Assembly (NCBI RefSeq): GCF_001748225.1
Contig: NZ_BDFE01000003.1
Span: 1 to 45,243, forward strand
Direction: 5' to 3'
Source: Desulfoplanes formicivorans
GTDB taxonomy: Bacteria > Desulfobacterota > Desulfovibrionia > Desulfovibrionales > Desulfomicrobiaceae
DNA length: 45,243 bases
Shown: positions 19,421 through 34,108 of the stretch, piece after piece
Position numbering within the stretch: the stretch's first letter is position 1
How the letters are laid out: every line of letters begins with the position of its first letter
Notes under the pieces: generated by a model
Told to the model about the DNA's origin: nothing
What the model saw: only the letters and a program-made list of their open reading frames with translations
Database searches by the model: none
Translations under genes and position numbers: made by a program

Positions 19421-21127
19421 ATGCAATCAAATATAAAACAGGCTCTCATTGATTGGGCCCATCTGACTCCCGAACAGGTTCAGACCGTTGATGCCATGCG
19501 TAAAAAACGCCGGCTTGATTTTCTGCATGCGGCCTACAAGAGCGGTGTGGTTACGGATGCTCGCTATGTGGAATTTTTGTCCCAGCGTTTGGGCATTCCA
19601 GCGGTTGATCCGTCTCGCATGCTCATTCCGGAGACGGTTTTGGGGCTGGTTGCCCGGGATTTGCTGGAAAAGTATAATGCGGTTCCCTTTTTCATCAAAG
19701 GCAAAAAACTGTTTCTGGCCATTTCAGAGCCCGATGACATCCTTGCTGTCGATGATATACGGTTCATGACCGGTCTTGATCCCGTGGTTCATGTTGCCTC
19801 GCCAGCGTCCATTGCCCGGTGCATCGCCCAGATCAAGGATGACGATGAACCCGAGGATTTTGGCGATATTCAAGACGCCTTGTCCGACATGGAAGGCGAA
19901 GGCATGGAATTCGATTCCGGGGAATCCGAGGAAAGCGACGATACCTCCACCCTGGAAGCTGCGACCCAGGCACCTGTCGTCAAGATGGTCAATCTGATCA
20001 TCATGGACGCCATTAAGAAGAAGGCCTCGGATATTCATATTGAGCCGTATGAGAAAAATTTCAGGGTCCGCTTGCGTATTGACGGAATATTGCATGAGAC
20101 CATGCGCCCTCCTGTTCGATTGAAAAACGCCATTATTTCAAGGCTCAAGATAATGGCTCACCTGAACATTGCTGAACGGCGCATTCCCCAGGACGGGCGT
20201 ATCAAGGTCAGAACACCCGGTGGCAAGGAAATGGAATTCCGTGTCTCCATTTTACCCACGCTTTTTGGCGAGAAAGTGGTTATGCGCCTTCTGGATAAAT
20301 CCGCTCTTAAAGTGGATCTCTCCCAATTGGGGTTTGAGGAACAATCTCTGCTCACCTTGAACAAGACTGTGCACAAGCCCTACGGCATGGTTCTGGTAAC
20401 CGGACCAACCGGGTCGGGCAAAACAACCACCTTGTATTCCGTCATCTCGGAACTCAACGACGACGGAGTGAACATTTCCACGGCCGAAGACCCGGTTGAA
20501 TTCAGTTTGCCCGGGGTCAATCAGGTTCTGGTCAATGAAGATGTGGGGTTGACCTTTGCTGCAGCGCTTCGGTCTTTTCTGCGCCAAGATCCGGACATTA
20601 TCCTGGTGGGCGAAATCCGTGATTTTGAAACAGCAGAGATTGCCATCAAGGCCGCCTTGACGGGCCATTTGGTCCTTTCCACGTTGCATACCAACGATGC
20701 GCCCAGTACGTTGACCCGTCTGCTCAACATGGGAGTGGACGGTTTTCTTGTGGCGTCTTCGGTCAATGTCATAGTTGCCCAGCGCCTGGTGCGCAAAATC
20801 TGTCCCTTTTGCCGCAGACAGATCGATCCTGACAGCGAAATGCTTTCCCGTCTGGGAATGACCTCCAGGGATATGGCCGGAGCCACCATTTACGAGCCTG
20901 TTGGCTGTTCGGAGTGTAACGAGTCGGGATACAAGGGGCGGATCGGGGTCTATGAAGTTCTTGAAATGACGCCTGAAATGCAGGAATTTGTTCTGGAGGG
21001 GAAAACCGTGCTGGAGATCAGGGAGCTTGCCATGCAGCAAGGAATGATAACCCTTCGAGAAAGCGCCCTGAACAAGTTGAAGCATGGTATTACATCAGTT
21101 CAGGAGGTCATGCGGGTGACGGTCTGA
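19421..21127 (+). CDS. pilB: Type IV pilus / type II secretion assembly ATPase PilB/GspE
   Basis: A 568-residue cytoplasmic hexameric ATPase that powers pilus or pseudopilus extension. The N-terminal about 150 residues form an MshEN-like domain (LSQRLGIPAVDPSRM, KKLFLAISEPDDILAVDDIRF). The ATPase core shows KKASDIHIEPYE, Walker A GPTGSGKTT at 328-336, the Asp box STAEDPVEFSLPGVNQV, Walker B DIILVGEIRDFETAEIAIKAALTGHLVLSTLHTND. A zinc site is formed by Cys461, Cys464, Cys496 and Cys499, as in PilB. An acidic linker (about 140-185) separates the parts. AGGTGA precedes the ATG. The platform gene pilC lies 112 bases downstream. Pilus versus type II secretion cannot be decided from this window. 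Confidence 0.92.
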   Translation: MQSNIKQALIDWAHLTPEQVQTVDAMRKKRRLDFLHAAYKSGVVTDARYVEFLSQRLGIPAVDPSRMLIPETVLGLVARDLLEKYNAVPFFIKGKKLFLAISEPDDILAVDDIRFMTGLDPVVHVASPASIARCIAQIKDDDEPEDFGDIQDALSDMEGEGMEFDSGESEESDDTSTLEAATQAPVVKMVNLIIMDAIKKKASDIHIEPYEKNFRVRLRIDGILHETMRPPVRLKNAIISRLKIMAHLNIAERRIPQDGRIKVRTPGGKEMEFRVSILPTLFGEKVVMRLLDKSALKVDLSQLGFEEQSLLTLNKTVHKPYGMVLVTGPTGSGKTTTLYSVISELNDDGVNISTAEDPVEFSLPGVNQVLVNEDVGLTFAAALRSFLRQDPDIILVGEIRDFETAEIAIKAALTGHLVLSTLHTNDAPSTLTRLLNMGVDGFLVASSVNVIVAQRLVRKICPFCRRQIDPDSEMLSRLGMTSRDMAGATIYEPVGCSECNESGYKGRIGVYEVLEMTPEMQEFVLEGKTVLEIRELAMQQGMITLRESALNKLKHGITSVQEVMRVTV

Positions 21128-21239
21128 TGCTCGGGCAGATTTTTTCCATACCATATGGAGATCTGGACGGTAGCTTGGATGTTTTGGGTGAAGCATGCTG
21201 TTTTCATTATGGTCGCTCAAGGTGCACAAGGAGTGAAAC

Positions 21240-22442
21240 ATGCCCATCTTTATTTACAAAGCCAGAAATCGGAGCGGGAGAAGAGTCAAGGGCGACTTGG
21301 ACGTCTCTTCTCTGGATGTGGCTCAAACAGCGCTCCAGCGCAAGGGTTTCACCGACATCAGGGTCAAGCCTCGTCCCAAGGATCTTCTGGAAGGGACATT
21401 TCTCGAAGAAGGGGTCAAGTCGCGGGATATGGTTGTGTTCAGCCGTCAGTTCGCCACCATGATCAATTCCGGGGTGCCCATCCTGCAATCCCTTCAGGTC
21501 ATGTGCGAGCAGACGGAGAACGGTAAGCTGCGAAGAGCCTTGTATGCCATCCGGAACTCCATAGAAGGAGGAAGTTCCCTGTATGATGCCATGCGCAAAT
21601 TTCCCGACATTTTTGATACCCTGTATGTGAACATGGTCAATGCAGGGGAGGTTGGGGGAATTTTGGACATCGTTCTGACGCGGCTGTCCGAGTACATCGA
21701 AAAAGCGGCCAAACTCAAGGCCAAGGTCAAGGGGGCCATGATCTATCCGGGTGTCGTGGTCACGGTTGCCGTGGCCGTTGTGGCGATCATCCTTATTTTT
21801 GTCATTCCCACCTTTGAAACCATGTTCCGTGATTTTGGAGGAGCGCTTCCCGTTCCCACTCAAATTGTTATCACCTTGAGTCGATTTGTTCAGGAACATT
21901 TTTTCATGATTGTGGCCTGTGTCATTGCCTTTTTCGTGGCCTTCAAGCTGTTTTACAAATGGGAACGGGGCAAGATCCTCGTGGATCGATGGGTCCTTTT
22001 TTTGCCTGTTTTTGGTCCTCTGTTGCGCAAGGTGGCTGTGGCTCGGTTCAGCAGAACCATGGGAACCATGATTTCGAGCGGGGTTCCCATTCTTTCCGCC
22101 CTGGATATTGTGGCCAGAACATCGGGAAACAAGACGGTGGAACGGGGTGTCCTGGAGGCTGCCAAGAGCATAGCCGAAGGACAGAACATGGCAGATCCCC
22201 TTGATGCCACTGGAGTATTTCCTCCCATGGTCATTCACATGATTTCCATTGGTGAATCCACGGGAGCCCTTGATACCATGCTCGAAAAGATTGCCGATTT
22301 TTATGATGACGAAGTCGATGTTGCCGTAGAAGCGTTGACCTCCTTGATCGAGCCCCTGATGATCGTTTTTCTTGGTATTGTTGTCGGGGGATTGGTGGTG
22401 AGCATGTACCTGCCCATATTCAAGATCGGGGAAACCATCTGA
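21240..22442 (+). CDS. pilC: Type IV pilus / type II secretion inner-membrane platform protein PilC/GspF
   Basis: The 400-residue product is a T2SSF-family protein with two tandem domains, each containing the family pattern (FSRQFATMINSGVPILQSLQVM and FSRTMGTMISSGVPILSALDIV). Membrane segments are at about 168-192, 220-240 and 375-392. The N-terminus MPIFIYKARNRSGRRVKGDL and the closing LIEPLMIVFLGIVVGG are characteristic. It forms the base on which pilin or pseudopilin subunits are added, and the ATPase encoded upstream drives it. AAGGAG precedes the ATG. No pilin or prepilin peptidase gene is in the window. Confidence 0.92.
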   Translation: MPIFIYKARNRSGRRVKGDLDVSSLDVAQTALQRKGFTDIRVKPRPKDLLEGTFLEEGVKSRDMVVFSRQFATMINSGVPILQSLQVMCEQTENGKLRRALYAIRNSIEGGSSLYDAMRKFPDIFDTLYVNMVNAGEVGGILDIVLTRLSEYIEKAAKLKAKVKGAMIYPGVVVTVAVAVVAIILIFVIPTFETMFRDFGGALPVPTQIVITLSRFVQEHFFMIVACVIAFFVAFKLFYKWERGKILVDRWVLFLPVFGPLLRKVAVARFSRTMGTMISSGVPILSALDIVARTSGNKTVERGVLEAAKSIAEGQNMADPLDATGVFPPMVIHMISIGESTGALDTMLEKIADFYDDEVDVAVEALTSLIEPLMIVFLGIVVGGLVVSMYLPIFKIGETI

Positions 22443-22583: not shown

Positions 22584-23480
22584 TTGAAGATCAGTGAATT
22601 GTTGGAGCATAACAAGCCGTTTGTCTCTCTGGAGTTTTTTCCACCCCGAGAACGGGTTGCCTGGCCCGGTTTTTTCGACGTGGTCAGGAATCTCAAGACG
22701 ACCCAACCCCTGTTTGTTTCCGTTACATACGGGGCAGGCGGGACCAGGCAGACCAACACGTTGGAGATAGCCACGCGTCTCAAACAGGAGTATGATCTCG
22801 AACCTCTGGCCCATTTTACCTGCGTGGGCGCTTCGGAATCGCGATTGCGGGCCTTTCTGGACGGATTGACCGATGGCGGGGTTGAAAACATTTTGGCTCT
22901 GCGAGGCGATCCCCCCAGGGGAGAACAGCATTTTAATGCTTCGGATGGTCGTTTTTCCCATGCTGTGGACCTGGTCAGGTTTATCCGTGAGGAATATCCG
23001 CATTTTTGCATTGGTGTTGCCGGTTATCCGGAAACCCATCCTGAAGCCTCCAATTCGGCCAGAGATCTGGATTTTCTCAAGGAGAAGCTGGATGCTGGAG
23101 CGGATTTCGTTGTCACCCAGCTTTTTTTCGACAATGCCTTGTATTTCGATTTCGTGTCCAGGGCCCGTTCCATAGGGATTACCCAGCCCATCATCCCGGG
23201 CGTGTTGCCGGTTGCAAGCCTTGCCGGTGTCAAACGGATGATAGGATTTTGTGGCGCCACCATGCCCAAGGCATATCTTGATGACCTTGAACTTGTTCAG
23301 GAACGCTATGGAGATGCTGCTGTACGTGGGCTGGGACTGGGTTATGCTCAACAGCAGGTCAGGGATCTGATCGAACATGATGCCCCTGGCGTGCATTTGT
23401 ATACCCTGAACAAAGCGGAAACCTGTCTGGAAATCGTACGCGGCAACCAGGACCTCTTGGATGCGGGCAAAAAGGGATGA
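22584..23480 (+). CDS. metF: Methylenetetrahydrofolate reductase
   Basis: MetF reduces 5,10-methylene-THF to 5-methyl-THF with FAD, for methionine synthesis or the C1 branch of the Wood-Ljungdahl route. The 298-residue protein has VSLEFFPPRERVAWPGFFD, FVSVTYGAGGTRQTNTLEIA, PLAHFTCVGAS, ILALRGDPPRGEQ, CIGVAGYPETHPEAS, LKEKLDAGADFVVTQLFFDN and IIPGVLPVAS, the expected folate and flavin elements. The start is TTG at 22584: AAGGAG lies eight bases upstream and no ATG occurs nearby. The USG-1-like gene begins about 50 bases after its stop. Confidence 0.95.
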   Translation: MKISELLEHNKPFVSLEFFPPRERVAWPGFFDVVRNLKTTQPLFVSVTYGAGGTRQTNTLEIATRLKQEYDLEPLAHFTCVGASESRLRAFLDGLTDGGVENILALRGDPPRGEQHFNASDGRFSHAVDLVRFIREEYPHFCIGVAGYPETHPEASNSARDLDFLKEKLDAGADFVVTQLFFDNALYFDFVSRARSIGITQPIIPGVLPVASLAGVKRMIGFCGATMPKAYLDDLELVQERYGDAAVRGLGLGYAQQQVRDLIEHDAPGVHLYTLNKAETCLEIVRGNQDLLDAGKKG

Positions 23481-23530
23481 TGCATTCCTTGCCTGCATGG
23501 GCAAATCATAAGCGTATACGTGGAGAAGGA

Positions 23531-24553
23531 ATGAAGACAGACGAGTATGTTGTGGGCCTGGTGGGCGGAACGGGAATTCTGGATCAGGAAATAGTAGCTG
23601 TTCTGGAAGAGCGGGAATTTCCGTGTTCGCAGATGGTGGCTTTTGTGGACAGCGACGGGGATAGGGCGGATCTGACATTCAGAGATGAGGATGTCCCTGT
23701 TGAGTTCTTGCGTGAGGACGGTTTTGAGGGCGTGGATTTGGTCTTTTTTGTGGGTGATAATGATCTGACCGCAAAGTGGATAGGTGATGCCGTCAAGGCG
23801 GGGTGTGCGATTGTCGATTGTTCAACCGACAGGGATGAAGATTCTTTAGCTCCTGTTATAGCATCCGGTGTCAATGATGAGGCCCTGGCAGGTAAGAGGA
23901 TGGCCGCCTCTCCGGGAGCGACGTCCTTGCAGCTTGCCGCTGTTCTCAAACCCCTTCACGACACATTTGCCATAAAGCGGGTGGTTGTTTCCACGTATCA
24001 ACCCGTTTCCAGTCAGGGGCATCCGGGCATTGAGGAATTGGAATCCCAGCTTCGTCATCTTCTCAATTATCAGGAGGCCCAAAGCGAGGTATTTCCCTAT
24101 CAGATAGCATTCAATTGCCTGCCACAAATAGGCGTTTTGCATGAGGATGAATACACGTCCCAGGAAACATCTCTCATCAGGGAAACCATGCAGATCCTTG
24201 GTGACGAGGCCTTGCGGATCACAGCCACGGCCTGTTTGGTACCCACGCTTTTTGGCAATGGGCTGTCCGTGAATATGGAAACATCGCAGGCTATTTCTCC
24301 ACGGGATGCACGGGCCATTTTGAGTCAAATCGATGGAATCACTGTTTTCGACAACCCGGCCGAGGAAATGTATCCCATGCCCCTGATCGTATCCGGTCAT
24401 GATGATGTTTTTGTGGGTCGGATCCGCAAGGATGCTTCTGTGGAACATGGTCTCAACCTGTGGATTGTTGGTGATAATATCCGTAACCAGGCTGTTAATG
24501 CCGTTCGGATCGGAGAGGGCTTGCGGGAAAAGGGACTGGGCGTTTCCAATTGA
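23531..24553 (+). CDS. Aspartate-semialdehyde dehydrogenase-like protein (USG-1 type) lacking catalytic residues
   Basis: A 340-residue homologue of aspartate-semialdehyde dehydrogenase. The nucleotide-binding start reads VGLVGGTGILDQEIVAVLEEREFP and matches the family. However, the catalytic NPNCST element reads SPGATSLQL with Ala130 at the cysteine position, and the catalytic His region (usually GHS) reads LFGNGLSV with Asn243. It therefore should not catalyse the standard reaction. E. coli USG-1 is a known paralogue that also lacks the cysteine, and this protein fits it better. ATG 23531 has GGAGAAGGA upstream; an earlier in-frame ATG at 23477 would overlap metF and add 18 unrelated residues. 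It sits between metF and a class IV aminotransferase gene. Confidence 0.85.
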   Translation: MKTDEYVVGLVGGTGILDQEIVAVLEEREFPCSQMVAFVDSDGDRADLTFRDEDVPVEFLREDGFEGVDLVFFVGDNDLTAKWIGDAVKAGCAIVDCSTDRDEDSLAPVIASGVNDEALAGKRMAASPGATSLQLAAVLKPLHDTFAIKRVVVSTYQPVSSQGHPGIEELESQLRHLLNYQEAQSEVFPYQIAFNCLPQIGVLHEDEYTSQETSLIRETMQILGDEALRITATACLVPTLFGNGLSVNMETSQAISPRDARAILSQIDGITVFDNPAEEMYPMPLIVSGHDDVFVGRIRKDASVEHGLNLWIVGDNIRNQAVNAVRIGEGLREKGLGVSN

Positions 24554-24607
24554 ACACACGCCCAATGATTCCTGTTGCGACTCATTTTGACATGTGGAGA
24601 AGCGTAT

Positions 24608-25555
24608 ATGCAGCAGATAGATGAATATCAATATATGGAAAGGATTCTGGCCCTGGAGCGTCCAGGCGAAAAAAACTTTCTGGCCTTTTACGATCATCGC
24701 CTCCGTGCCTGTGTCACCAATCCCCGTTTGATGCTCATTCCCATGGATGATCATCTGGTACACAGGGGAGACGGTGTTTTTGAAACCCTCAAGTTTGTGG
24801 ACGGCAAACTCTATCAGCTTGATGCCCATATCCAGCGTTTGCGTCATTCGCTGGAAACCATTTTCATCACCCCGCCTGCACCATGGAAGGATATTCGAAA
24901 GATTGTTGTGGAGGTTGCCCGGGCGGCAGGAGTGTCCAACGGCCTTGTTTCCATTTTTATTGGACGGGGATTGGGCGGGTTTTCACTCGATTTCAGGGAG
25001 TGTGAACATTCCACCCTCTATGTTGTCGCCCGGCGCTTTCCCTCCATTCCCCATCAGATATGGGAAAAAGGGGTGCATGCGTGTCGTACGAGTATTCCTG
25101 CCAGATCCAAGGAGCTGGCCCATATCAAGAGCGTCAACTACCTCAATAACGTCCTCATGAAGCGGGAGGCCATTCTCAAGGGATGTGCCTATCCCTTGTG
25201 TTTTGGTCCGGATCACTTCTTGGCCGAAGGCGCAGCAGAAAATATCATTATTGTCGATCACTCGGGGCAGATGGTTGTTCCTGAAATGACCCATGCCTTG
25301 CCAGGTACGACCATGTTGCGGGCATTGGAATTGATCGCCCGTGAACATGATTATGTTACACGGCCCATAAGCGAGGATGATATTCGAGTGGCCAGTGAGG
25401 TCATTCTTCTTGGAACATCCATTGATGCTCTGAGCATTGTTCGCTATAATGGCAAACCCATTCATGACGTGCGTCCGGGACCGGTGAGCAGACGGTTGCG
25501 CCAGCTGTTGCAGGAGGATCTTCTCAAAAACGGGACGCCTCTTGATGAGGGGTGA
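24608..25555 (+). CDS. Class IV PLP-dependent aminotransferase
   Basis: A 316-residue enzyme of the branched-chain aminotransferase / D-amino-acid aminotransferase / aminodeoxychorismate lyase fold. Signature elements are HRGDGVFETLKFVDGKLYQLDAHIQRL, Lys174 in HIKSVNYLNNVL, which holds PLP, then AEGAAENIIIV, MTHALPGTTMLRALELI and EVILLGTSIDAL. Which of the three reactions it performs cannot be decided: the first residues (about 1-40) form an extension before the first motif. ATG 24608 is chosen for its TGGAGAAG. It is the last gene of the 16.3-25.6 kb plus-strand run and a strong terminator follows. Confidence 0.88.
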   Translation: MQQIDEYQYMERILALERPGEKNFLAFYDHRLRACVTNPRLMLIPMDDHLVHRGDGVFETLKFVDGKLYQLDAHIQRLRHSLETIFITPPAPWKDIRKIVVEVARAAGVSNGLVSIFIGRGLGGFSLDFRECEHSTLYVVARRFPSIPHQIWEKGVHACRTSIPARSKELAHIKSVNYLNNVLMKREAILKGCAYPLCFGPDHFLAEGAAENIIIVDHSGQMVVPEMTHALPGTTMLRALELIAREHDYVTRPISEDDIRVASEVILLGTSIDALSIVRYNGKPIHDVRPGPVSRRLRQLLQEDLLKNGTPLDEG

Positions 25556-25704: not shown

Positions 25705-25741
25705 AAAAGCCCGCCTTTCCTTCAGGGAAAGGCGGGCTTTT
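25705..25741. terminator. Bidirectional rho-independent terminator between convergent genes
   Basis: AAAAGCCCGCCTTTCC pairs exactly with GGAAAGGCGGGCTTTT around a short TTCAG loop, with A and T tails on both sides. It serves the aminotransferase operon on the plus strand and the glycosyltransferase gene on the minus strand, and overlaps the stop codon of the latter. It marks the border between the housekeeping block and the glycan locus. Confidence 0.93.
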
Positions 25742-26798
25742 AGTTGTTCTGGAACATGGATTGGTACAAGGTGAGGTATCTGGAGGCCATGGTTTCGTGC
25801 GCATGGTGTGTGCAGACATAGTCATATGCCTTGGCAACCAGTGATTGCGCCAGTTCCGTGTCACTGAGGAGATACTGGATGTTCCTGGCGAGTTCTTTGG
25901 GTTCGTGAATCGGAGAGACGAGTCCGTGTCCCGGGACGATTTCCTTGAGACCTCCAGCGTTTGTGGTTGCAACCGGAATTTTGTGCCGGAATGCCTCAAG
26001 CACCGTACTGCCGAGACCTTCCTCCTGCGAGCTCATGACAAAGACATCGGCCAGAGGCAAGAGCCCTTCAGCATTGTCAACAAAACCAAGCAGAAAGTAG
26101 CATTTTTGCAATCCTGCCTTCAGAACCAGACGCGTTATGTCCGGTTCGAGATTGCCTGAACCACAATGAAAAAACATGGCCTTGGGTTCATCAATATGCA
26201 GCTGTTTGGCTGCTTTGATCATCGTGTATGGGTCTTTGTGGGGGACCAGTGCAGCAATGGACAGAATGATCTTTTTGCCTGCGTGTTTCTGTTTGAGAAT
26301 GTTGTCAGCGATATGCTTGGGAGGTGAAGGAACAGGAGCACGTAAATCAATGGCACTGGGAATGACTCTATCGTTAGCCACTCCAAAATCATCAAGTACC
26401 TGGGCAATGGCCTGGGAGATGGCAACGACCTTGTCAGTATGGCGGTATTTGAACCGCGCTGGCAAGCCCCGCGGTTTGAAATCAACCCTTCGGGTATAGA
26501 CGATTGGAGTCCTGTGAAACGGTTTGGTCAGGACAGCGGCACTTTGTGCCTTGGCTGTTTGGGCATGGAGGATATCAAAGGAAGATCCGTGGGCAGTTAA
26601 AAATGCCATGGCCTGCAACGAATTACCAACTTCGTGGCAGAGAATATGACGTTGTGTTGCCTTGTGGGCAAGGGGATGCCCTTTGCGACATAAAATTTCA
26701 ACCCGGTTCCCCAAGGCGGTCAATCCTTCGGCTGTAAGCAGTGTCTGCTTCTCTCCCCCCCTCCATGTTTTTTCCGTATTGATTTGTAGAATATTCAT
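25740..26798 (-). CDS. Glycosyltransferase family 4 protein
   Basis: A 352-residue GT-B enzyme that would move a sugar from a nucleotide donor. The N-terminal acceptor domain begins MNILQINTEKTWRGGEKQTL. The C-terminal donor domain has SIAALVPHKDPYTMIKAA, YFLLGFVDNAEGLLPLADVFVMSSQEEGLGSTVLEAF with the E-x7-E motif, and TNAGGLKEIVPG. ATG 26798 is chosen; the weak GAGAACG precedes it, and an upstream in-frame start at 26831 would add 11 residues. It is transcribed away from the rest of the glycan locus. It resembles heptosyl or capsular GT4 enzymes, but the sugar cannot be told. Confidence 0.88.
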   Translation of the reverse strand: MNILQINTEKTWRGGEKQTLLTAEGLTALGNRVEILCRKGHPLAHKATQRHILCHEVGNSLQAMAFLTAHGSSFDILHAQTAKAQSAAVLTKPFHRTPIVYTRRVDFKPRGLPARFKYRHTDKVVAISQAIAQVLDDFGVANDRVIPSAIDLRAPVPSPPKHIADNILKQKHAGKKIILSIAALVPHKDPYTMIKAAKQLHIDEPKAMFFHCGSGNLEPDITRLVLKAGLQKCYFLLGFVDNAEGLLPLADVFVMSSQEEGLGSTVLEAFRHKIPVATTNAGGLKEIVPGHGLVSPIHEPKELARNIQYLLSDTELAQSLVAKAYDYVCTHHAHETMASRYLTLYQSMFQNN

Positions 26799-27148
26799 TG
26801 CGTTCTCGGGGTTACCAACAGGTTGTTGCACTCATTGGGGGAGTCGTTTTCATATTTTTTTCTGGCAGATGGCTTAGGACGAGGTATGCGCATGGCTGGT
26901 CGCACAGGCATCTCACAAACGGGCAGGTGATTTTCTAGTTCGCAAGACATGGGAAGTCGAGAAGAAAATGGGCTCCAGAGTGATCAATCCTGAAAAAGAA
27001 GATGAAGCCTTTTTGGGATGATTTTATTTTGTTTTGAATTTCAGATTGTTATATGAATACAAAAGGCATGAGAAAGAGAAGTGGGTGGCATGGATATTGT
27101 TTAACTGATGCAACAGCAGCCCAACCTTTAACTCCATCAGATATCCCT
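26799..27148. other. Divergent intergenic region
   Basis: This gap lies between two divergent glycosyltransferase genes and should hold their promoters. I saw no clear -35/-10 pair, no RfaH ops/JUMPstart-like GGCGGTAG element and no repeat. The plus-strand frame is open from an ATG at 27053, so part of it could be an N-terminal extension of the next gene. Confidence 0.4.
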
Positions 27149-28111
27149 ATGAAAGTAATTGTACAAATTCCCTGTTTCAACGAAGAGCACACGCTTCCCA
27201 TGACGATCAGGGATATTCCCAGGACCATGGAAGGGGTGGACAGTGTAGAGATCCTCATTGTGGATGACGGAAGTACCGATAAAACCGTGGAAGTGGCCAA
27301 GAAACTCGGGGTCAACCATATTGTGCGCAATGTATGCAACAAGGGGCTGGCCTATACGTATGTGACCGCCCTGGATGCGTGTTTGAGGCTGGGGGCGGAC
27401 ATCATCGTCAATACTGATGGGGACAATCAGTATAAGGGTGAGGATATTCCCAAGCTCATAGAACCCATTCTCAAGGGAGAGGCAGAGCTCGTGGTCGGGG
27501 ACAGACAGACCGATTCCATCGAACATTTCAGCCGAAGCAAAAAAGGATTGCAGCGTATCGGAAGCAGTGTTGTGCGGTTCTTGTCAGGAACGGATATTCA
27601 GGATGCTGTAAGTGGTTTTCGGGCAATTAGCCGTAAAGCAGCAATGCGAATGAATATTGTGACAGGCTATTCCTATACTGTCGAATCGATTATTCAGGCT
27701 GGAAAAAAAGGATTGGCTGTAACCAGTGTTCCCATTGGTACAAATGGGAAAACACGGGAATCACGTCTTGTTAAAAGCATTCCAAAATTTATTTCCATGC
27801 AAATCAATACAATGGTTAGAATGTATACCATGTATCAGCCATTGAGAGTATTTTTTTTGATCGGCATGCTGTTCATTCTTGCGGGGATGATTCCATCTAT
27901 CCGATTTGTTTATTTTTACATATCTGGGAATGGTGACGGTCATATCCAATCGCTCATATTGGCTGCAATTCTGTTTATTGTTGGTTTTCAGATATTGGTA
28001 TTGGGTCTGATCGGAGATGTTATCTCGTTCAACAGAAGGCTGATTGAAGAGACATTGTTGCGAGTGCGGAAAATCGAATTTGATTACCTTGGGGCCAAGA
28101 AAACACAATGA
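27149..28111 (+). CDS. GT2 glycosyltransferase, DPM1/polyprenyl-phosphate type, with membrane tail
   Basis: An approximately 320-residue GT-A enzyme. It starts at KVIVQIPCFNEEHTLP with ILIVDDGSTDKT and the metal-binding DTDG-type motif NTDGDNQYKGEDIPKL. Further on are DAVSGFRAISRKAAMRMN and two C-terminal membrane segments (about 235-260 and 275-300). Such proteins usually load a sugar onto a lipid phosphate, or add the first sugar of a repeat. The ATG at 27149 is chosen by homology; ATGs at 27053 and 27068 would add 27-32 residues and neither has a better ribosome binding site. It overlaps the next gene by four bases (ATGA). Confidence 0.88.
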   Translation: MKVIVQIPCFNEEHTLPMTIRDIPRTMEGVDSVEILIVDDGSTDKTVEVAKKLGVNHIVRNVCNKGLAYTYVTALDACLRLGADIIVNTDGDNQYKGEDIPKLIEPILKGEAELVVGDRQTDSIEHFSRSKKGLQRIGSSVVRFLSGTDIQDAVSGFRAISRKAAMRMNIVTGYSYTVESIIQAGKKGLAVTSVPIGTNGKTRESRLVKSIPKFISMQINTMVRMYTMYQPLRVFFLIGMLFILAGMIPSIRFVYFYISGNGDGHIQSLILAAILFIVGFQILVLGLIGDVISFNRRLIEETLLRVRKIEFDYLGAKKTQ

Positions 28112-29223
28112 AAATGACCATTGTCGGGCCAACATATCCTTTTCGAGGCGGGATAGCTCAGCACACAACTCTTTTGTGCAATACGCTCAGATTGCATCAT
28201 GATGTTCAATTCATTTCATTCACAAGGCAATATCCAAAATTGATTTTTCCAGGCAAAACAGATCGTGATCCAAGCAAAAATGCATTGCGTTCAGATCCTG
28301 TTGAATATCTTGTTGATTCATTAAATCCATACTCATGGTACAAAACGACTCAACGCATTATTCAGTTTAAACCAGATAAAATTATTTTTCCATGGTGGGT
28401 TATTTTTTGGGCTCCCCAGACATGGTATATCATTAAAAAAATTCGAAAAAAGATACAAACGAAAATTATAATAGTATGTCACAATGTTGCTGATCATGAA
28501 AATAATGTAATCAAGGAGAAAATCAACAGGCTCGTTCTTAAGAACAGTGATATCCTGATAACCCAATCCAAAGAGGAAACCGGCAAGCTCAGGAAACTCC
28601 TGGGCCAAAAGATCGCTACCGACTCCATTCAAACGGGATTCCATCCCACTTATGCAGATCTATGTCTTGATTCTCCCCAGCATGGGGGTGGGACACGCAC
28701 CAATCATGAACTGCTTTTTTTTGGATTTGTCCGAAAATACAAGGGGCTGGATGTTCTTCTGGATGCCTTGGCCCTGATAAGAGACCAGAAAAACATCCAT
28801 CTCAATATTGTGGGAGAATTTTGGAAAGACAAACAGAGCTATCTAGAAAAAATCAAGGAACTGGGCATAGCAAACAACGTTACCATCATGGATGAGTATG
28901 TACCCAACGAGCAGTTGGGAAGGCATTTTTTGGCAGCAGATTTGGTGGTTCAGCCCTACTTGAGTGCTTCGGGAAGCGGAGTGAGCCAATTGGCATACGG
29001 ATTTGGCAAGCCCGTTATTGCAACAAATGTCGGGAGTATTGGAGAGGTTGTACAGGATTGGGTCAACGGACGTTTGGTTGCGCCCAACGACCCGGCAGCT
29101 CTTGCTCGCGCGATTGTGGAATCCCTGGAAGAGGATCAACTCAAAAAAATGCAACATGAAGCAGAAAAAGTAAGGTATAGATTTTCTTGGGAAAAATTTG
29201 CTGAAATGATAACTGAATGCTAA
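28108..29223 (+). CDS. Glycosyltransferase family 4 protein
   Basis: A 371-residue GT-B protein. The N-terminal MKMTIVGPTYPFRGGIAQHT is typical of GT4 with its GG nucleotide loop. The donor domain shows FFGFVRKYKGLDVLLDALALI, VGEFWKDKQSYLEKI, DEYVPNEQLGRHFLAADLVVQPY, SASGSGVSQLAYGFGKPVIATNVG and GRLVAPNDPAALARAI. It overlaps the previous gene by ATGA and the hexapeptide acetyltransferase gene begins 13 bases later, so the genes are one transcript. The second half is richer in GC than the first. The specific sugar is unknown. Confidence 0.9.
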   Translation: MKMTIVGPTYPFRGGIAQHTTLLCNTLRLHHDVQFISFTRQYPKLIFPGKTDRDPSKNALRSDPVEYLVDSLNPYSWYKTTQRIIQFKPDKIIFPWWVIFWAPQTWYIIKKIRKKIQTKIIIVCHNVADHENNVIKEKINRLVLKNSDILITQSKEETGKLRKLLGQKIATDSIQTGFHPTYADLCLDSPQHGGGTRTNHELLFFGFVRKYKGLDVLLDALALIRDQKNIHLNIVGEFWKDKQSYLEKIKELGIANNVTIMDEYVPNEQLGRHFLAADLVVQPYLSASGSGVSQLAYGFGKPVIATNVGSIGEVVQDWVNGRLVAPNDPAALARAIVESLEEDQLKKMQHEAEKVRYRFSWEKFAEMITEC

Positions 29224-29236
29224 AAAGGGCAGGCTT

Positions 29237-29989
29237 ATGGAAGATACAAAAGTGTACGGCAGTGACACTGGAGAAGGCATTCCAAAGAAAAGTTTTTTTG
29301 AAAAGATATCGATGTATGTGCAACACGTATGTGGAAGCAAGAGCCTTGTGTTTTTTGTTGTCCAAGGAATGATTTTTTTGGTTTTCAAAAATTTTCCTAC
29401 AATTCTTGGAACGTATATACGTCCATTTATCTACTCTATCATATTTAATAAAATTGATTCAGGATGTCTTATTGAAAGTGGAGTTAGATTTGAGATTCCC
29501 AAAAAAATAACACTTGGAAAAAATGTTTTTATCGGAGAAAGCTGTTGGGTGGGTACAGGTACAGGTGAAGGGAATATAGAAATTGGAAAAAATTCATTTA
29601 TAGCGCATCGTTCAACATTGGCCGCTCAGGGGGGAAACTTATGCATTAAAGAACATGTTCATGTCAGTCGTGGAAGCTATATAAATGGAATTGGAAATGT
29701 GACCATTGGCAACGACTGCATGATTGGGCCAAATGTTGTTATCATAAGCGGAACACATAATTATAATGATGTGACAATACCTATTCGCAAGCAAGGATCA
29801 ACAAAAAAACAGATTGTGATTGAAGATAATGTATGGCTTGCCGCAAATGTGAATGTAATGCCTGGTGTGACTATAGGTGAAGGAAGTGTTATTGGTGCAG
29901 GAGCTGTTGTAACGAAAGATATTCCTTCATATAGTATTGCTGTTGGTGTTCCAGCTCGTATCATAAAAAATAGAAAAAATGATGAATAA
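29237..29989 (+). CDS. Hexapeptide-repeat (left-handed beta-helix) O-acetyltransferase
   Basis: A 250-residue acyltransferase of the NodL/WbbJ type that acetylates a sugar with acetyl-CoA. Residues 30-80 are hydrophobic and may form an anchor. The C-terminal two thirds shows hexapeptide turns (IEIGKNSFIAHRSTL, VTIGNDCMIGPNVVI, VTIGEGSVIGAGAVVTKDIP). SGTHNYNDVTIPIRKQG carries the likely catalytic His and the closing VGVPARIIK is the family ending. GGGCAGG precedes the ATG. It overlaps the sulfotransferase gene by 11 bases. Its substrate is probably a repeat-unit sugar of the locus. Confidence 0.88.
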   Translation: MEDTKVYGSDTGEGIPKKSFFEKISMYVQHVCGSKSLVFFVVQGMIFLVFKNFPTILGTYIRPFIYSIIFNKIDSGCLIESGVRFEIPKKITLGKNVFIGESCWVGTGTGEGNIEIGKNSFIAHRSTLAAQGGNLCIKEHVHVSRGSYINGIGNVTIGNDCMIGPNVVIISGTHNYNDVTIPIRKQGSTKKQIVIEDNVWLAANVNVMPGVTIGEGSVIGAGAVVTKDIPSYSIAVGVPARIIKNRKNDE

Positions 29990-30911
29990 ACCAAATTTTT
30001 TTATAGTTGGGGAGCCGAAGTCGGGTACGACAGCCCTTCATGACTTTCTTGATCAGCATCCTCAAATTACGATGTCCACAGTCAAGGAGCCTTATCATTT
30101 TTGTACTGACTTGCATCAAGAAAGTGATCAGTTTCATAAAAAACGTTTGTATTTTAAATATCGTGATCAAGATAAGTATTTATCATTGTTTAAACAGGAT
30201 AAATTGTATGATGCTGTAGGAGAATCATCAACGTTTTATATCTGGTCAAAAGACGCAGCTAAAAACATCCATTCGTTCAATCCTGACGCAAAAATCATTA
30301 TTTTTCTTAGGAATCCTATTGATTTTATATATTCGCTTCATTCGCATTGGGTCGTAGAGACGTATGAAAATATCACTTCTTTTGAAGAAGCGTTGCGTGC
30401 AGAAACTGAGAGAAAAATCAATTGGCAACGGATTCCTTCTCGGGCCTATTTTCCATCCATGTTGTACTATACGTCCATGGCCAATTATGCATCAAAGGTT
30501 AGCAGGTTTTATAAGTATTTTGATCGCGACCAGGTGAAGGTGTTTGTTTTTGAAGATTTTAAAAAAAATAATGCAAATATTTTTCAAAACATATTAAAAT
30601 TTTTAGAAGTGGATCAAACATTTGAGCCGCAATACAAAAAAGTTAACGCGAGCAAAAAACCAAGATGTCCTGCATTGAATTATGTTGCTCAAAATGTGTA
30701 TTTTATTGAAGGTTTGAAAAAAATTATGCCTATGCGTGTTCATCGGATGATTAAGCATGCTGGGCAGAAGATGCTTTGGAAAGAAACTGCACGAGAAAAA
30801 ATGCCTGAAGATATCCGTTATGAGTTGACCAGAAAGTTCTTCCGTGAAGTTAAGTCGATAAGCGATGTATTGCAAAGGGATATGGTTCGTTACTGGAATT
30901 TTAAAATCTAG
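29979..30911 (+). CDS. PAPS-dependent sulfotransferase
   Basis: A 310-residue cytosolic sulfotransferase. The PAPS 5'-phosphosulfate loop is FFIVGEPKSGTTALHDFLDQHP near the N-terminus. The 3'-phosphate binding region is IIFLRNPIDFIYSLHSHW, with the RNP and Ser residues expected. The C-terminal VNASKKPR and the basic tail are typical of carbohydrate sulfotransferases. It is likely to sulfate a sugar of the polysaccharide made by this locus, an inference from context. ATG 29979 and the adjacent ATG 29982 are equal candidates; it overlaps the acetyltransferase gene, so translation is probably coupled. PAPS synthesis genes are not in the window. Confidence 0.86.
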   Translation: MMNKPNFFIVGEPKSGTTALHDFLDQHPQITMSTVKEPYHFCTDLHQESDQFHKKRLYFKYRDQDKYLSLFKQDKLYDAVGESSTFYIWSKDAAKNIHSFNPDAKIIIFLRNPIDFIYSLHSHWVVETYENITSFEEALRAETERKINWQRIPSRAYFPSMLYYTSMANYASKVSRFYKYFDRDQVKVFVFEDFKKNNANIFQNILKFLEVDQTFEPQYKKVNASKKPRCPALNYVAQNVYFIEGLKKIMPMRVHRMIKHAGQKMLWKETAREKMPEDIRYELTRKFFREVKSISDVLQRDMVRYWNFKI

Positions 30912-30930
30912 TGTTTTTTCATGGTGAAAA

Positions 30931-32178
30931 GTGGGAATTCAGAGGTCGTCATTTTATTTCATGGTAGCACGGGTTGTCTTCGTCGCTAGCGCTTATGTGT
31001 TGCACGTTTTTACAGCATACTATTTTAATGATCCTGTATTATATGGAAATCTTGCTGTTGCTTTGAGTATAAGTTCTATTGGTCTTGTATTTATTCAGTT
31101 TGGATTTCCACAATCAATATCAAAATTCATTTCAGAAAACAGATTGCAATCATATGAGGTATTTTTAGCAGGTAGATACGTTTACATGATTTTTGGATTT
31201 ATAATATTTTTGACGTACCTTTGTTTTACTCCACTATGGGTCTATATAACCAAAGACAGCTCATTTATATATATTTTGCTTGTTTCTTCTATGTTGATAC
31301 CATTATTTTCTTATAATAATTCATTTATGGCTTATCTTAATGGATGTCAAAGATTCAAGGAACAGGCTTTTTTTGTAGCTTTGTATCCACTTAATAGAAT
31401 ATTCTTTGCGATAATTTTTATACTTTTAGGTTTTGAAATATGTGGTGTTTTTGCAGGATTTGTTTGTGCATGTATAATAAATGCTGTGCTTTTGAGAAAA
31501 AAAATTCATCAAAAGCAAGGTAACAAAAAGTTTTCGTCAGAACCAATTGTGAAATTTGCGATACCCATTGTGTTTATGTCCATAGGTATTTCACTATATA
31601 TGAGTATGGATATGATAATAATAAAATATTTTTATCAAGATAGTGATGTTGTAGGATTCTATGCTGCATCGTCGGCAATTTCAAAAATACCTTATTATAT
31701 ATATTTTGCATATTCGATGACGTTAATACCGATTATTTCTAGATATATAAATATTTCAATGCATAATGAATCAATTTGTATTATAAAAAAATGTTTGTAT
31801 ACTTTGTGTAGTATGATTGCCGTTTCTTCTATTATTGTTGCTATGTTTTCAACTGAAATTATCGATTTCGTGTACCCAAAAGGGTATTCTTCGTTGGCAC
31901 ACGTTATGTCTATTTTGTTTTTATCAATGGGAATACTTTCTCTTTTTCAAACATTGTCATCGATTTTTATTTCAATAAACAACGTATATATATCTGCAAT
32001 AGTTATTTATTGCATATTAGTGATGGAAGTAGGGATGAGTGTGTATTCAATACCACGCTTTGGTATAATTGGAATGGCATATTCGAGTATAATCCCGGTT
32101 ATTTTCGGGTCGGTTACTTTGATGGTTCTTCTTCTACACAGGCTAAAAGAAATAGGTACGTGCATAAAATCTCTATAA
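30931..32178 (+). CDS. Wzx-type polysaccharide flippase, 415 residues
   Basis: A polytopic protein with about 12 hydrophobic segments and short loops, of the PST/MOP superfamily that flips undecaprenol-linked repeats. Characteristic stretches are FTAYYFNDPVLYGNLAVALS, FPQSISKFISENR, FAIPIVFMSIGISLYMSMDMIIIKYF and VGFYAASSAISKIPYY. The start is given as GTG 30931 with GGTGA upstream; ATG 30961 would remove ten residues. The gene is strongly AT-rich compared with its neighbours. A second flippase gene (34108-35547) is present, which is unusual for a single glycan. The methyltransferase gene follows after 31 bases. Confidence 0.83.
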   Translation: MGIQRSSFYFMVARVVFVASAYVLHVFTAYYFNDPVLYGNLAVALSISSIGLVFIQFGFPQSISKFISENRLQSYEVFLAGRYVYMIFGFIIFLTYLCFTPLWVYITKDSSFIYILLVSSMLIPLFSYNNSFMAYLNGCQRFKEQAFFVALYPLNRIFFAIIFILLGFEICGVFAGFVCACIINAVLLRKKIHQKQGNKKFSSEPIVKFAIPIVFMSIGISLYMSMDMIIIKYFYQDSDVVGFYAASSAISKIPYYIYFAYSMTLIPIISRYINISMHNESICIIKKCLYTLCSMIAVSSIIVAMFSTEIIDFVYPKGYSSLAHVMSILFLSMGILSLFQTLSSIFISINNVYISAIVIYCILVMEVGMSVYSIPRFGIIGMAYSSIIPVIFGSVTLMVLLLHRLKEIGTCIKSL

Positions 32179-32209
32179 TACAATTCCTTTAAATGAATGA
32201 GGAGCAATA

Positions 32210-32926
32210 ATGTTGACCCAAGACAAGGCTGAAGAGATTCAGATCAATTTAGCGCAACTCGAACGCGAAGGTGAAAACTATCGGGGTTCTGGGTGGGGAA
32301 AGAAAAAAATGAATCGTGTTTTCAACCTGCTCAAAAAATATGTTGATTTCGAAGAAGGGCATTATTCGGTGTTGGATCTTGGATGCGGAGGCATGACCCT
32401 GGGAAAGGAGCTTCACAAGATCTCCTCCTTTAATGTTGTTGGCGTCGACATTGTCTATCAATTGCTGTCCACTCTTTCCAAGAAAAGAACTCCGGACATA
32501 CCTCTTGTTTCGGGCGATATTGAACTTCTTCCTTTTCGTGACAACAGTTTTGACCTGATAGCCCACAACCAGGTGCTGCATCATTTTCTGGCAAGACATA
32601 TTGCCCTGTCTGAAATCAATCGGGTTTTAAAGCCGGGAGGACTCCTTTTCAGTATAGAAACAAATGGTTGGAATCCCTACGTTTACCATTGGCATCATTC
32701 TCCCAAAAGCAAAAAAAAGAATTTTATTGGAGATAACGAAAATCCGTTCGGTGTTCTCAAATTCACCAAGGAAGTTGCCCAGGCTGGACTCAAGGTCAGA
32801 GAGTGGAAAATGATCAATTTTGACTTTGTTCAGATTCTTTCCCCTTTTGATCCCTTTTTTAGTGCGATTCCCTTGTTCAACATGGTTTTTGGCGGATCCA
32901 TGGTTGTTTGCGCTCAAAAAATCTAA
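32210..32926 (+). CDS. Class I SAM-dependent methyltransferase
   Basis: A 238-residue soluble protein with the SAM-binding core: VLDLGCGGMTLGKEL at 54-68, NVVGVDIVYQLLSTLS as the second strand, VSGDIELLPFRDNSFDLIAHNQVLHHF with the Asp of the third element, and INRVLKPGGLLFSIETNG. This is the layout of Methyltransf_11 proteins and the C-terminal part is unassigned. GAGGAG precedes the ATG. It could methylate a sugar or a lipid intermediate. It lies between a flippase gene and the radical SAM gene, with 15 bases to the latter, and has higher GC than the AT-rich flippase genes on both sides. Confidence 0.9.
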   Translation: MLTQDKAEEIQINLAQLEREGENYRGSGWGKKKMNRVFNLLKKYVDFEEGHYSVLDLGCGGMTLGKELHKISSFNVVGVDIVYQLLSTLSKKRTPDIPLVSGDIELLPFRDNSFDLIAHNQVLHHFLARHIALSEINRVLKPGGLLFSIETNGWNPYVYHWHHSPKSKKKNFIGDNENPFGVLKFTKEVAQAGLKVREWKMINFDFVQILSPFDPFFSAIPLFNMVFGGSMVVCAQKI

Positions 32927-32941
32927 TCTATTAACTCGTGG

Positions 32942-34108
32942 ATGGCCTGCATGAACGCAAAAGATTTTATTACCCACATTTACCCCAAGACATGGGGATT
33001 CAAACTGGCATATCATGGCTTGAGCAAGCCTATCAGGCCGATAACTTTGACATTTTCTGTTACAAATCGGTGCCAAAGCAGGTGCAAAACGTGTGGTATC
33101 TGGAAAATTTATCCCAATAAATGGCAGGAACCTGCCAATGAGCTCAAACTTGATGAAATCGAGAAGATCTTCAAATCAATAGGAAGCAGGGTGTATTTTT
33201 TTAATTTGAGCGGTGGGGAACCCTTCTTGCGGAATGATTTGCCAGAAATCGTTGAAGCCGCTGTGACCTATCTCAAGCCATCCATTATCCATTCACCCAC
33301 CAATGCCATTGCCACCCGAAGGGTTGTAGAGGGAACACGAAAAATACTTGAAATGCTCAGGGCCAAGGGACTGCACACCCCGGTTACGATCAAGCCGTCA
33401 CTGGATGGGATCGGAAAGCTGCACGATGAGATACGAGGAGTTCCTGGCAACTGGGAAAAATTGATGGCCACGATAACCGAATTGAAAAAACTTCAAGAAG
33501 AATATGACAATTTTCATGTTGAAATCGGAACTGTTGTTTCTAATTTCAACAAGGATTGTCTGGATGAAATTGAAGATTTCGTCCACGGACTCGGTGTCCA
33601 AAGCTATCGGAATGAAATCGCTGAGCAGCGGGAGGAATTTTTTAATGTGGGTGATCCCATAACTCCTTCAGGCGAAGAGTATGCAGAACTCATAAAAAAT
33701 TTTTCAAGTAAAATTCGACACAACCTTGTTAACAAAAAAAAGCTTGCCCAAACAACCGAATCATTAAGGTTGGTTTATTATGATATTGCCAGCGAAATTG
33801 TCAAAAAGAAAACACAAGTCATTCCATGTTATGCTGGTATCACGAATGCTCATCTGACACCACATGCAGAACTATGGCCATGCTGTGTACTTGGTTATAC
33901 AAAATCAATGGGCAACCTCAGAGACACCAATTATGACTTTTGGAAAGTATGGCATAGCGATTCTGCCATCAGGATTAGAAAATATATAAAGGATAAAAAT
34001 TGTTATTGTCCGTTGGCTAATCAAACGTATTCAAATATTGTATGTAATAATAAACAAACAATGAAAATTTTGTATAACATGCTAAGTGTAAAATTCATGA
34101 GACATTAA
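32942..34108 (+). CDS. Radical SAM protein with a SPASM-like Cys-rich C-terminus
   Basis: A 388-residue protein with a radical SAM 4Fe-4S site at Cys44, Cys48 and Cys51 (NRCQSRCKTCGIW, the CxxxCxxC motif) and the following NLSGGEPFLRND with the GGE element. The barrel includes IKPSLDGIGKLHDEIRG. The C-terminal region has further cysteines (IPCYAG, LWPCCVLGYTKSMGNLRD, KNCYCPLANQTYSNIVC) that resemble SPASM or twitch auxiliary cluster ligands. GVPGNWEKLMATI and ITNAHLTPHAELWPCCVLG are typical of SPASM-like enzymes of sugar or peptide modification. No peptide precursor gene is visible nearby. It overlaps the next flippase gene by one base (TAATG). Start at 32942 lacks a clear site; ATG 32951 is an alternative. 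Confidence 0.86.
   Translation: MACMNAKDFITHIYPKTWGFKLAYHGLSKPIRPITLTFSVTNRCQSRCKTCGIWKIYPNKWQEPANELKLDEIEKIFKSIGSRVYFFNLSGGEPFLRNDLPEIVEAAVTYLKPSIIHSPTNAIATRRVVEGTRKILEMLRAKGLHTPVTIKPSLDGIGKLHDEIRGVPGNWEKLMATITELKKLQEEYDNFHVEIGTVVSNFNKDCLDEIEDFVHGLGVQSYRNEIAEQREEFFNVGDPITPSGEEYAELIKNFSSKIRHNLVNKKKLAQTTESLRLVYYDIASEIVKKKTQVIPCYAGITNAHLTPHAELWPCCVLGYTKSMGNLRDTNYDFWKVWHSDSAIRIRKYIKDKNCYCPLANQTYSNIVCNNKQTMKILYNMLSVKFMRH

Follow-up and report, generated by a model that had tools for sequence, protein, structure and literature searches.

An asd_B-type ASADH homologue of Desulfoplanes formicivorans, predicted to be catalytically dead, at the resident asd locus of its order

The aspartate-semialdehyde dehydrogenase (ASADH) homologue P0001, a protein of 340 residues encoded in the 45,243-nucleotide stretch of Desulfoplanes formicivorans DNA analyzed here (the window; Table 1), is the resident asd of its order at the ancestral metF-asd-aminotransferase locus, that is, a displaced orthologue and not a duplicate. 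As a sequence-only reading of this DNA had proposed, P0001 is not expected to function as an ASADH, with 7 of 8 active-site positions replaced. The best explanation, which we consider probable, is that a foreign Asd replaced the native ASADH in catalysis and that the latter was retained as a pseudoenzyme, in parallel to USG-1, with a present role that we infer below.

Gene, predicted fold and active site

The P0001 frame is translated through 340 codons without an internal stop. An alternative in-frame ATG is located upstream, at 23477, but the start at 23531 is favored because it is preceded by a probable ribosome-binding site, GGAGAAGGA, and matches the starts of the homologues. Both PF01118 and PF02774 are detected above the cut-off in a Pfam scan, the AlphaFold model has a mean pLDDT of 90.6 and a pTM of 0.90, and the closest PDB matches of the model in a structure search are asd_B-type ASADHs (TM ~0.92), so that the fold is predicted to be intact outside the active site, in agreement with the earlier reading. 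P0001 passes the PRK14874 equivalog model (293.6 vs a cut-off of 223) and fails TIGR01296 (283.7, below the cut-off of 324.2). Automatic annotation would hence name the gene asd, and this name, as had been anticipated, would be wrong. Thus, P0001 resembles the asd_B ASADHs (TIGR01296; S. pneumoniae ASADH, V. cholerae ASADH II) in fold and shares the locus of the intact enzymes of the order, but differs from them in the active site and in falling below the TIGR01296 cut-off.

Table 1. Features of the asd block, in window coordinates
Feature	Position	Strand	Basis
metF, methylenetetrahydrofolate reductase, conserved upstream neighbour in the order	22584..23480	+	PF02219, 299.8 bits; TIGR00676 above cut-off
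Probable ribosome-binding site	23520..23530	+	Read from the sequence, immediately 5' of the P0001 start
Resident asd_B-type ASADH homologue P0001, putatively dead catalytically	23531..24553	+	ORF, Pfam, active-site alignment, AlphaFold
Asp102 codon, replaces phosphate-binding Arg (Sp Arg99)	23834..23836	+	Alignment; Arg role from PMC3276109
Gly129-Ala130 codons, replace Asn and nucleophilic Cys (Sp Asn127-Cys128)	23915..23920	+	Alignment
Gln157 codon, sole active-site residue of 8 retained (Sp Gln155)	23999..24001	+	Alignment
Codons 211-214; Gln211 in place of substrate-binding Glu (Sp Glu220), Ser214 in place of phosphate-binding Lys (Sp Lys223)	24161..24172	+	Alignment
Leu236 codon, replaces substrate-binding Arg (Sp Arg245)	24236..24238	+	Alignment
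Asn243 codon, replaces acid-base His (Sp His252)	24257..24259	+	Alignment
Class IV aminotransferase, conserved downstream neighbour in the order	24608..25555	+	PF01063, 136.7 bits

Eight positions were scored, in S. pneumoniae (Sp) numbering Arg99, Asn127, Cys128, Gln155, Glu220, Lys223, Arg245 and His252, where we take Arg99, Cys128, Gln155, Lys223 and His252 to be the correct numbers of the respective active-site residues. At these sites, P0001 reads D G A Q Q S L N, so that 1/8 is kept and 7/8 catalytic or substrate-binding residues are changed. Both substitutions that had been pointed out from the sequence are borne out by the alignment, namely, Ala130 at the nucleophilic Cys (SPGATSLQ vs NPNCSTIQ) and Asn243 at the catalytic His (LFGNGLS vs FYGHSES), and neither is a local misreading given that five further canonical residues are also replaced (Asn129->Gly, Arg102->Asp, Glu211->Gln, Lys214->Ser and Arg236->Leu). 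All eight residues are retained in each of 30 homologues from the order and in 35 of 36 homologues from other named genomes. Furthermore, P0001 differs at 26 and retains 42 of the 68 alignment columns that are at least 98% constant across 164 intact relatives; these changes include G18D, S40D, R42D and G319N, at positions that presumably belong to the coenzyme site of ASADH.

No relocated nucleophile is apparent in the P0001 alignment; the cysteines of the FNCLP and TACLVP motifs are not read as such because they are common to the copy of the sister species, which keeps the normal Cys. P0001 could be an enzyme with a different reaction or substrate that employs the remaining pocket, given that the predicted overall fold and Gln157 are retained and that families of the semialdehyde-dehydrogenase superfamily differ in substrate, but such an activity appears very unlikely for a protein that has neither a nucleophile at the Cys position nor a base at the His position and is changed in more than a third of the near-constant columns, including the presumed coenzyme-binding residues. 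The roles of the eight residues, and the numbers Asn127, Glu220 and Arg245, follow PMC3276109; according to the table of this paper, the residual activity of H. influenzae ASADH is <0.01% with Cys->Ser, 1.0% with His->Asn, 0.07-0.4% with changes of Arg103 and 3.3% with Lys246->Arg.

Locus, ancestry and the second Asd of the genome

The location of P0001 between metF and a class IV aminotransferase had been considered unusual, but this is where asd normally lies in the order: the three genes are found together in 7 of the 8 longer loci from the order (L126-L133), and metF and asd in the eighth. For the aminotransferase, a start at ATG 24608 is proposed from GGAG at 24596-24599, compared with TTG 24575 in the ORF list. 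Between D. formicivorans and its sister species (G077, the sole other member of the genus in the sample), identity is 77% for both metF and the aminotransferase but only 48% for the resident asd. Identity of P0001 to the asd of the order is 44-48% in the 30 best rows of the homologue search. In a free tree (trees took 81 or 75 of the 224 aligned rows), P0001 falls inside the 22-row clade of the order (support 100), beside the copy of the sister species (86), with an end branch of 2.32 vs 0.28 for that copy. When P0001 was kept outside the other 21 rows of the order, the likelihood of the tree was higher than that of the free tree, so that the exact position of P0001 is not fixed owing to its long branch, and the shared locus is a stronger argument than the tree for P0001 being the resident gene.

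Genes for T2SSE (with MshEN) and T2SSF are located directly 5' of metF (window 19421-22442), and several loci of the order likewise have a T2SSF gene in the vicinity of metF-asd. On the other side of the asd block, the region 25740-34108 encodes glycosyltransferases, a hexapeptide acyltransferase, a sulfotransferase-like protein and a radical SAM/SPASM protein, and is probably a surface-polysaccharide cluster.

The classification of P0001 as a USG-1-type paralogue, suggested previously, is not supported. P0001 scores below the cut-offs of both PRK05671 (214.2 vs 284) and PRK08040 (162.6 vs 273), which we take to be the USG-1 models, it occupies the native locus of the order, and the free tree separates it from usg; E. 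coli usg clusters with the asd_B proteins of Gammaproteobacteria (support 99). The tree of ASADH and USG-1 proteins that had been called for thus places P0001 in the asd clade of the order, but a forced clade of P0001 and USG-1 is not rejected (p-AU 0.285). In principle, P0001 could be a true USG-1 member transferred from Gammaproteobacteria, considering this p-AU value and the similar loss in P. aeruginosa USG-1 (PDB 2hjs), in which Ala is aligned with the Cys and Asp with the His; the failure of both models, the native locus, the affinity of usg with gammaproteobacterial asd_B and the much lower identity to 2hjs (29% in the structural alignment) than to the asd of the order make such a transfer highly improbable. 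What P0001 and USG-1 (E. coli usg b2319 and 2hjs) have in common is an asd_B-type fold that lacks the catalytic Cys, and E. coli, like D. formicivorans, possesses an E. coli-type Asd in addition. Unlike P0001, E. coli Usg retains the catalytic His, is encoded in a pdxB-usg-truA locus and stems from a different branch of the free tree.

The genome of D. formicivorans encodes three PF02774 proteins: P0001, a 357-codon frame near 299 kb of contig C15 that is taken for argC by elimination, and an E. coli-type Asd (C15:21353-22456), on a different contig from P0001, with an intact GGNCTVS motif and a score well above the cut-off of TIGR01745 asd_gamma (600.6 vs 402.9). The true asd that the sequence-only reading had expected elsewhere in the genome is thus the E. 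coli-type gene, the product of which is likely to be active judging from the intact motif and the model score. The possibility that P0001 is a duplicate of this gene was rejected given that the two belong to different subfamilies and that P0001 occupies the native locus of the order.

The E. coli-type Asd is found in only 2 of the 199 genomes of the order, both from the genus in question, whereas an asd_B match is present in 192. The two E. coli-type proteins share 85% identity, and one further nearby gene is common to both genomes; the nearest among the other phylum copies fetched is 71% identical, so the gain probably predates the split of the two species. In two other genomes of the order that are 99-100% complete (G103 and G109), neither an asd_B match at an E-value of 1e-10 nor an E. 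coli-type Asd was detected.

Resident and second Asd across the phylum

The resident copy of the sister species keeps 6/8 residues, with the Cys retained and His->Gln and Lys->Arg replacements, and departs from the near-constant columns at three places only (Gly161->Glu, Lys214->Arg and His243->Gln), with base errors being possible among these substitutions in an assembly that is 77% complete and consists of ~390 contigs. In the tree, this copy evolves at an approximately normal rate.

In the phylum sample of 395 genomes, the E. coli-type Asd is present in 67. The search for asd_B among carriers of the E. coli-type Asd covered 67 genomes (66 from the phylum and the sister species), with D. formicivorans added separately, and produced matches in 16, so that 17 genomes possess both types; in most of these, the E. 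coli-type gene was recognized by model score only. The resident copy is altered in 14 of the 17. One of the altered copies retains 7/8 residues (L115 in G352), another one keeps the Cys and His but only 4/8 in total (L116), and in the remaining 12, including P0001 and the copy of the sister species, the Cys and/or the His is replaced. The three genomes that keep 8/8 all have asd_B adjoining the E. coli-type gene.

By comparison, all 8 residues are present in 164 of 166 control genomes without an E. coli-type Asd (30/30 from the order and 134/136 others). The controls are distinct genomes from 57 families and represent a part of the 279 genomes, among the 295 in the phylum with an asd_B match, that have no E. 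coli-type Asd. Those from the order comprise the 28 best loci plus 2, out of 190 matching genomes other than the two of the genus, and the other 136 come from the best-scoring loci, 40 listed places and 40 of the weakest; 70 of 80 weak control genomes were read, the other 10 being mostly fragments, and G200 (66% complete) was dropped. The two exceptions, G288 (L233) and G253 (L237), which belong to other families, combine a dead asd_B with a second Asd of the EA type that has an intact Cys motif and passes TIGR00978, so a type other than that of E. coli may also be the one that takes over. Every altered resident asd in this sample coexists with another Asd, with an intact motif where this was read.

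No asd_B match was found in 51 of the 67 genomes with the E. coli-type Asd, so that loss of the resident gene is the common outcome and retention that of a minority; PF02774 is matched once or twice in 50 of these 51 genomes, and the two additional matches of the remaining one, G231, were read as ArgC and an EA-type Asd. The altered copies are confined to a few lineages, namely, f1 (the genus of D. formicivorans), f38, f105 and the two EA cases. With only 2-3 contrasts among phylogenetically independent pairs (sign test p >= 0.5), the association between an altered asd_B and a second Asd is not significant after correction for phylogeny, there being too few independent events. Fisher p-values calculated for the same association count related genomes as independent and are therefore no reliable guide.

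Within f38, the Cys position is occupied by Pro, Ala or Ser, or else the Cys is kept together with Asn at the His, and this variety suggests several separate inactivations. Of the 14 altered copies, 13 have lost Gly161 of the YQAVSG loop, among them that of the sister species, which retains the Cys; E. coli Usg lacks this glycine as well, so that its loss might be an early or convergent step. In several scanned loci, the altered copies of f38 and f105 adjoin aconitase-like genes (probably leuC/leuD), leuB-like genes and/or cbiQ. The near-intact copy in L115 is flanked likewise (leuB-asd-cbiQ), so the altered copies are apparently in their native place; no leu-type or cbiQ neighbours were found within the stretches scanned around L120, L122 and L123. 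An interpretation of L115 as a pseudogene was withdrawn given that the flagged TAG is the natural stop after 332 residues.

In the three genomes with two intact enzymes (L112-L114 in G546, G475 and G260, from two families), asd_B and the E. coli-type asd lie within ~1.7 kb of each other, and G260 and G475 contain a third semialdehyde-dehydrogenase gene, probably argC, ~3 kb further. These side-by-side pairs possibly represent an early stage of takeover. A second ASADH isoform that occurs beside a Gram-negative-type ASADH in a species given as "V." is reportedly a redundant enzyme, going by the title of the paper; this isoform resembles the three intact pairs, and P0001 differs from it in that the active site is lost.

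Constraint, decay and reasons for retention

Along the P0001 branch, 84 of 272 comparable first codon positions (31%), 65 of 284 second positions (23%) and 74 of 124 third positions (60%) are changed; the third positions are saturated, and pairwise dN/dS with P0001 is unusable for the same reason (dS saturated). In simulations of neutral drift by 0.15-0.30 substitutions per site, no stop arose in 3.1% to 0.25% of the runs. For three congeneric species with Cys->Pro, dN/dS is 0.24, 0.16 and 0.17, and the other altered pairs range from ~0.08 to 0.46 (the highest being L122/L123), several-fold above the ~0.04-0.05 of three pairs of intact copies. The codon-position pattern and the stop simulation favor selection on P0001 after inactivation, and the case is clearer for the three Cys->Pro relatives. 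Together, these comparisons argue for an altered protein that is constrained, albeit less than the enzyme; a recent release is nevertheless possible, and part of the constraint on the P0001 branch may date from before inactivation.

These data bear on the possibility that P0001 is decaying, i.e. was released after the arrival of the foreign Asd and is drifting toward loss, with the frame still open either for lack of time or through avoidance of polarity. Resident genes without a detectable match in 51 of 67 genomes, the fast evolution of P0001 and the elevated dN/dS of the altered copies are all compatible with decay, but second codon positions have changed far less than third ones, drift of the size seen in P0001 would rarely leave no stop, the dead copies of three congeneric species show dN/dS of 0.16-0.24, and the fold of P0001 is predicted with high confidence; on balance, we consider decay unlikely.

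The reading of P0001 as a retained pseudoenzyme implies the following scenario. The ancestor of the genus would have gained a second, E. coli-type Asd, which probably took over the essential reaction, as suggested by its distribution and intact motif, while the native copy stayed in the metF-asd-aminotransferase locus. As its sequence shows, the native copy has lost catalytic, substrate-binding and several probable coenzyme-site residues, evolving approximately eightfold faster than that of the sister species, and has kept its frame, predicted fold and signs of constraint at the protein level. P0001 would now most likely be a folded and probably dimeric pseudoenzyme that binds a protein or a ligand and might function in aspartate-family or one-carbon metabolism. 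The simplest reason for its retention would be a second, non-catalytic role which the native ASADH performed before the takeover and for which the foreign enzyme could not substitute.

The combination that characterizes a pseudoenzyme, namely, a predicted intact fold, loss of the catalytic residues and coexistence with a homologue that has an intact motif and is presumably active, is found in P0001. Against this reading, avoidance of polarity on the aminotransferase gene further downstream could be the only reason for the open frame, three genomes with both Asd types keep both intact, and retention is the minority outcome. The trypanosome prozyme, a catalytically dead paralogue that activates its partner (PMC5201418), is comparable in that a dead enzyme is found beside a homologue which, for P0001, is presumably active. 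In contrast to the prozyme, the active partner of P0001 would belong to another subfamily (18-22% identity to E. coli-type structures), and a heterodimer of P0001 and the E. coli-type Asd was considered and set aside as unlikely at ~20% identity in structural alignments.

We tentatively suggest, as a possibility that is yet less likely to be right than wrong, a general rule for bacteria that gain a second Asd: the resident asd_B either disappears or persists at its locus as a dead protein, and this would have occurred separately in at least three families of the phylum and in Gammaproteobacteria (USG-1). In the literature on USG-1/usg, ASADH, pseudoenzymes and gene displacement, where coverage of subscription journals was poor, we found no report of a case like P0001. 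Dead asd_B-like proteins are known from USG-1; what is new, as far as the literature was searched, is an independent case that arose from the resident asd after a foreign takeover, together with the intermediate sister copy and the parallels in the phylum.

The annotation of P0001 is hereby corrected, given that a standard equivalog model would name it a working enzyme and would mislead metabolic models and target lists based on asd. With the part-way copy of the sister species, the transition from active enzyme to pseudoenzyme is represented by a natural series. That other bacteria appear to make a USG-1-like protein from their own asd bears on Usg, a gene of unsettled function in Gammaproteobacteria; PMC6358828 describes a growth defect of a Salmonella usg deletion under oxidative stress that is reversed by a truA plasmid, which leaves the role of Usg itself open there. 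If the rule outlined above is true, ordinary asd_B ASADH would carry a conserved non-catalytic function that comes to light when another enzyme takes over the reaction, and that ASADH itself has a second role is a testable claim.
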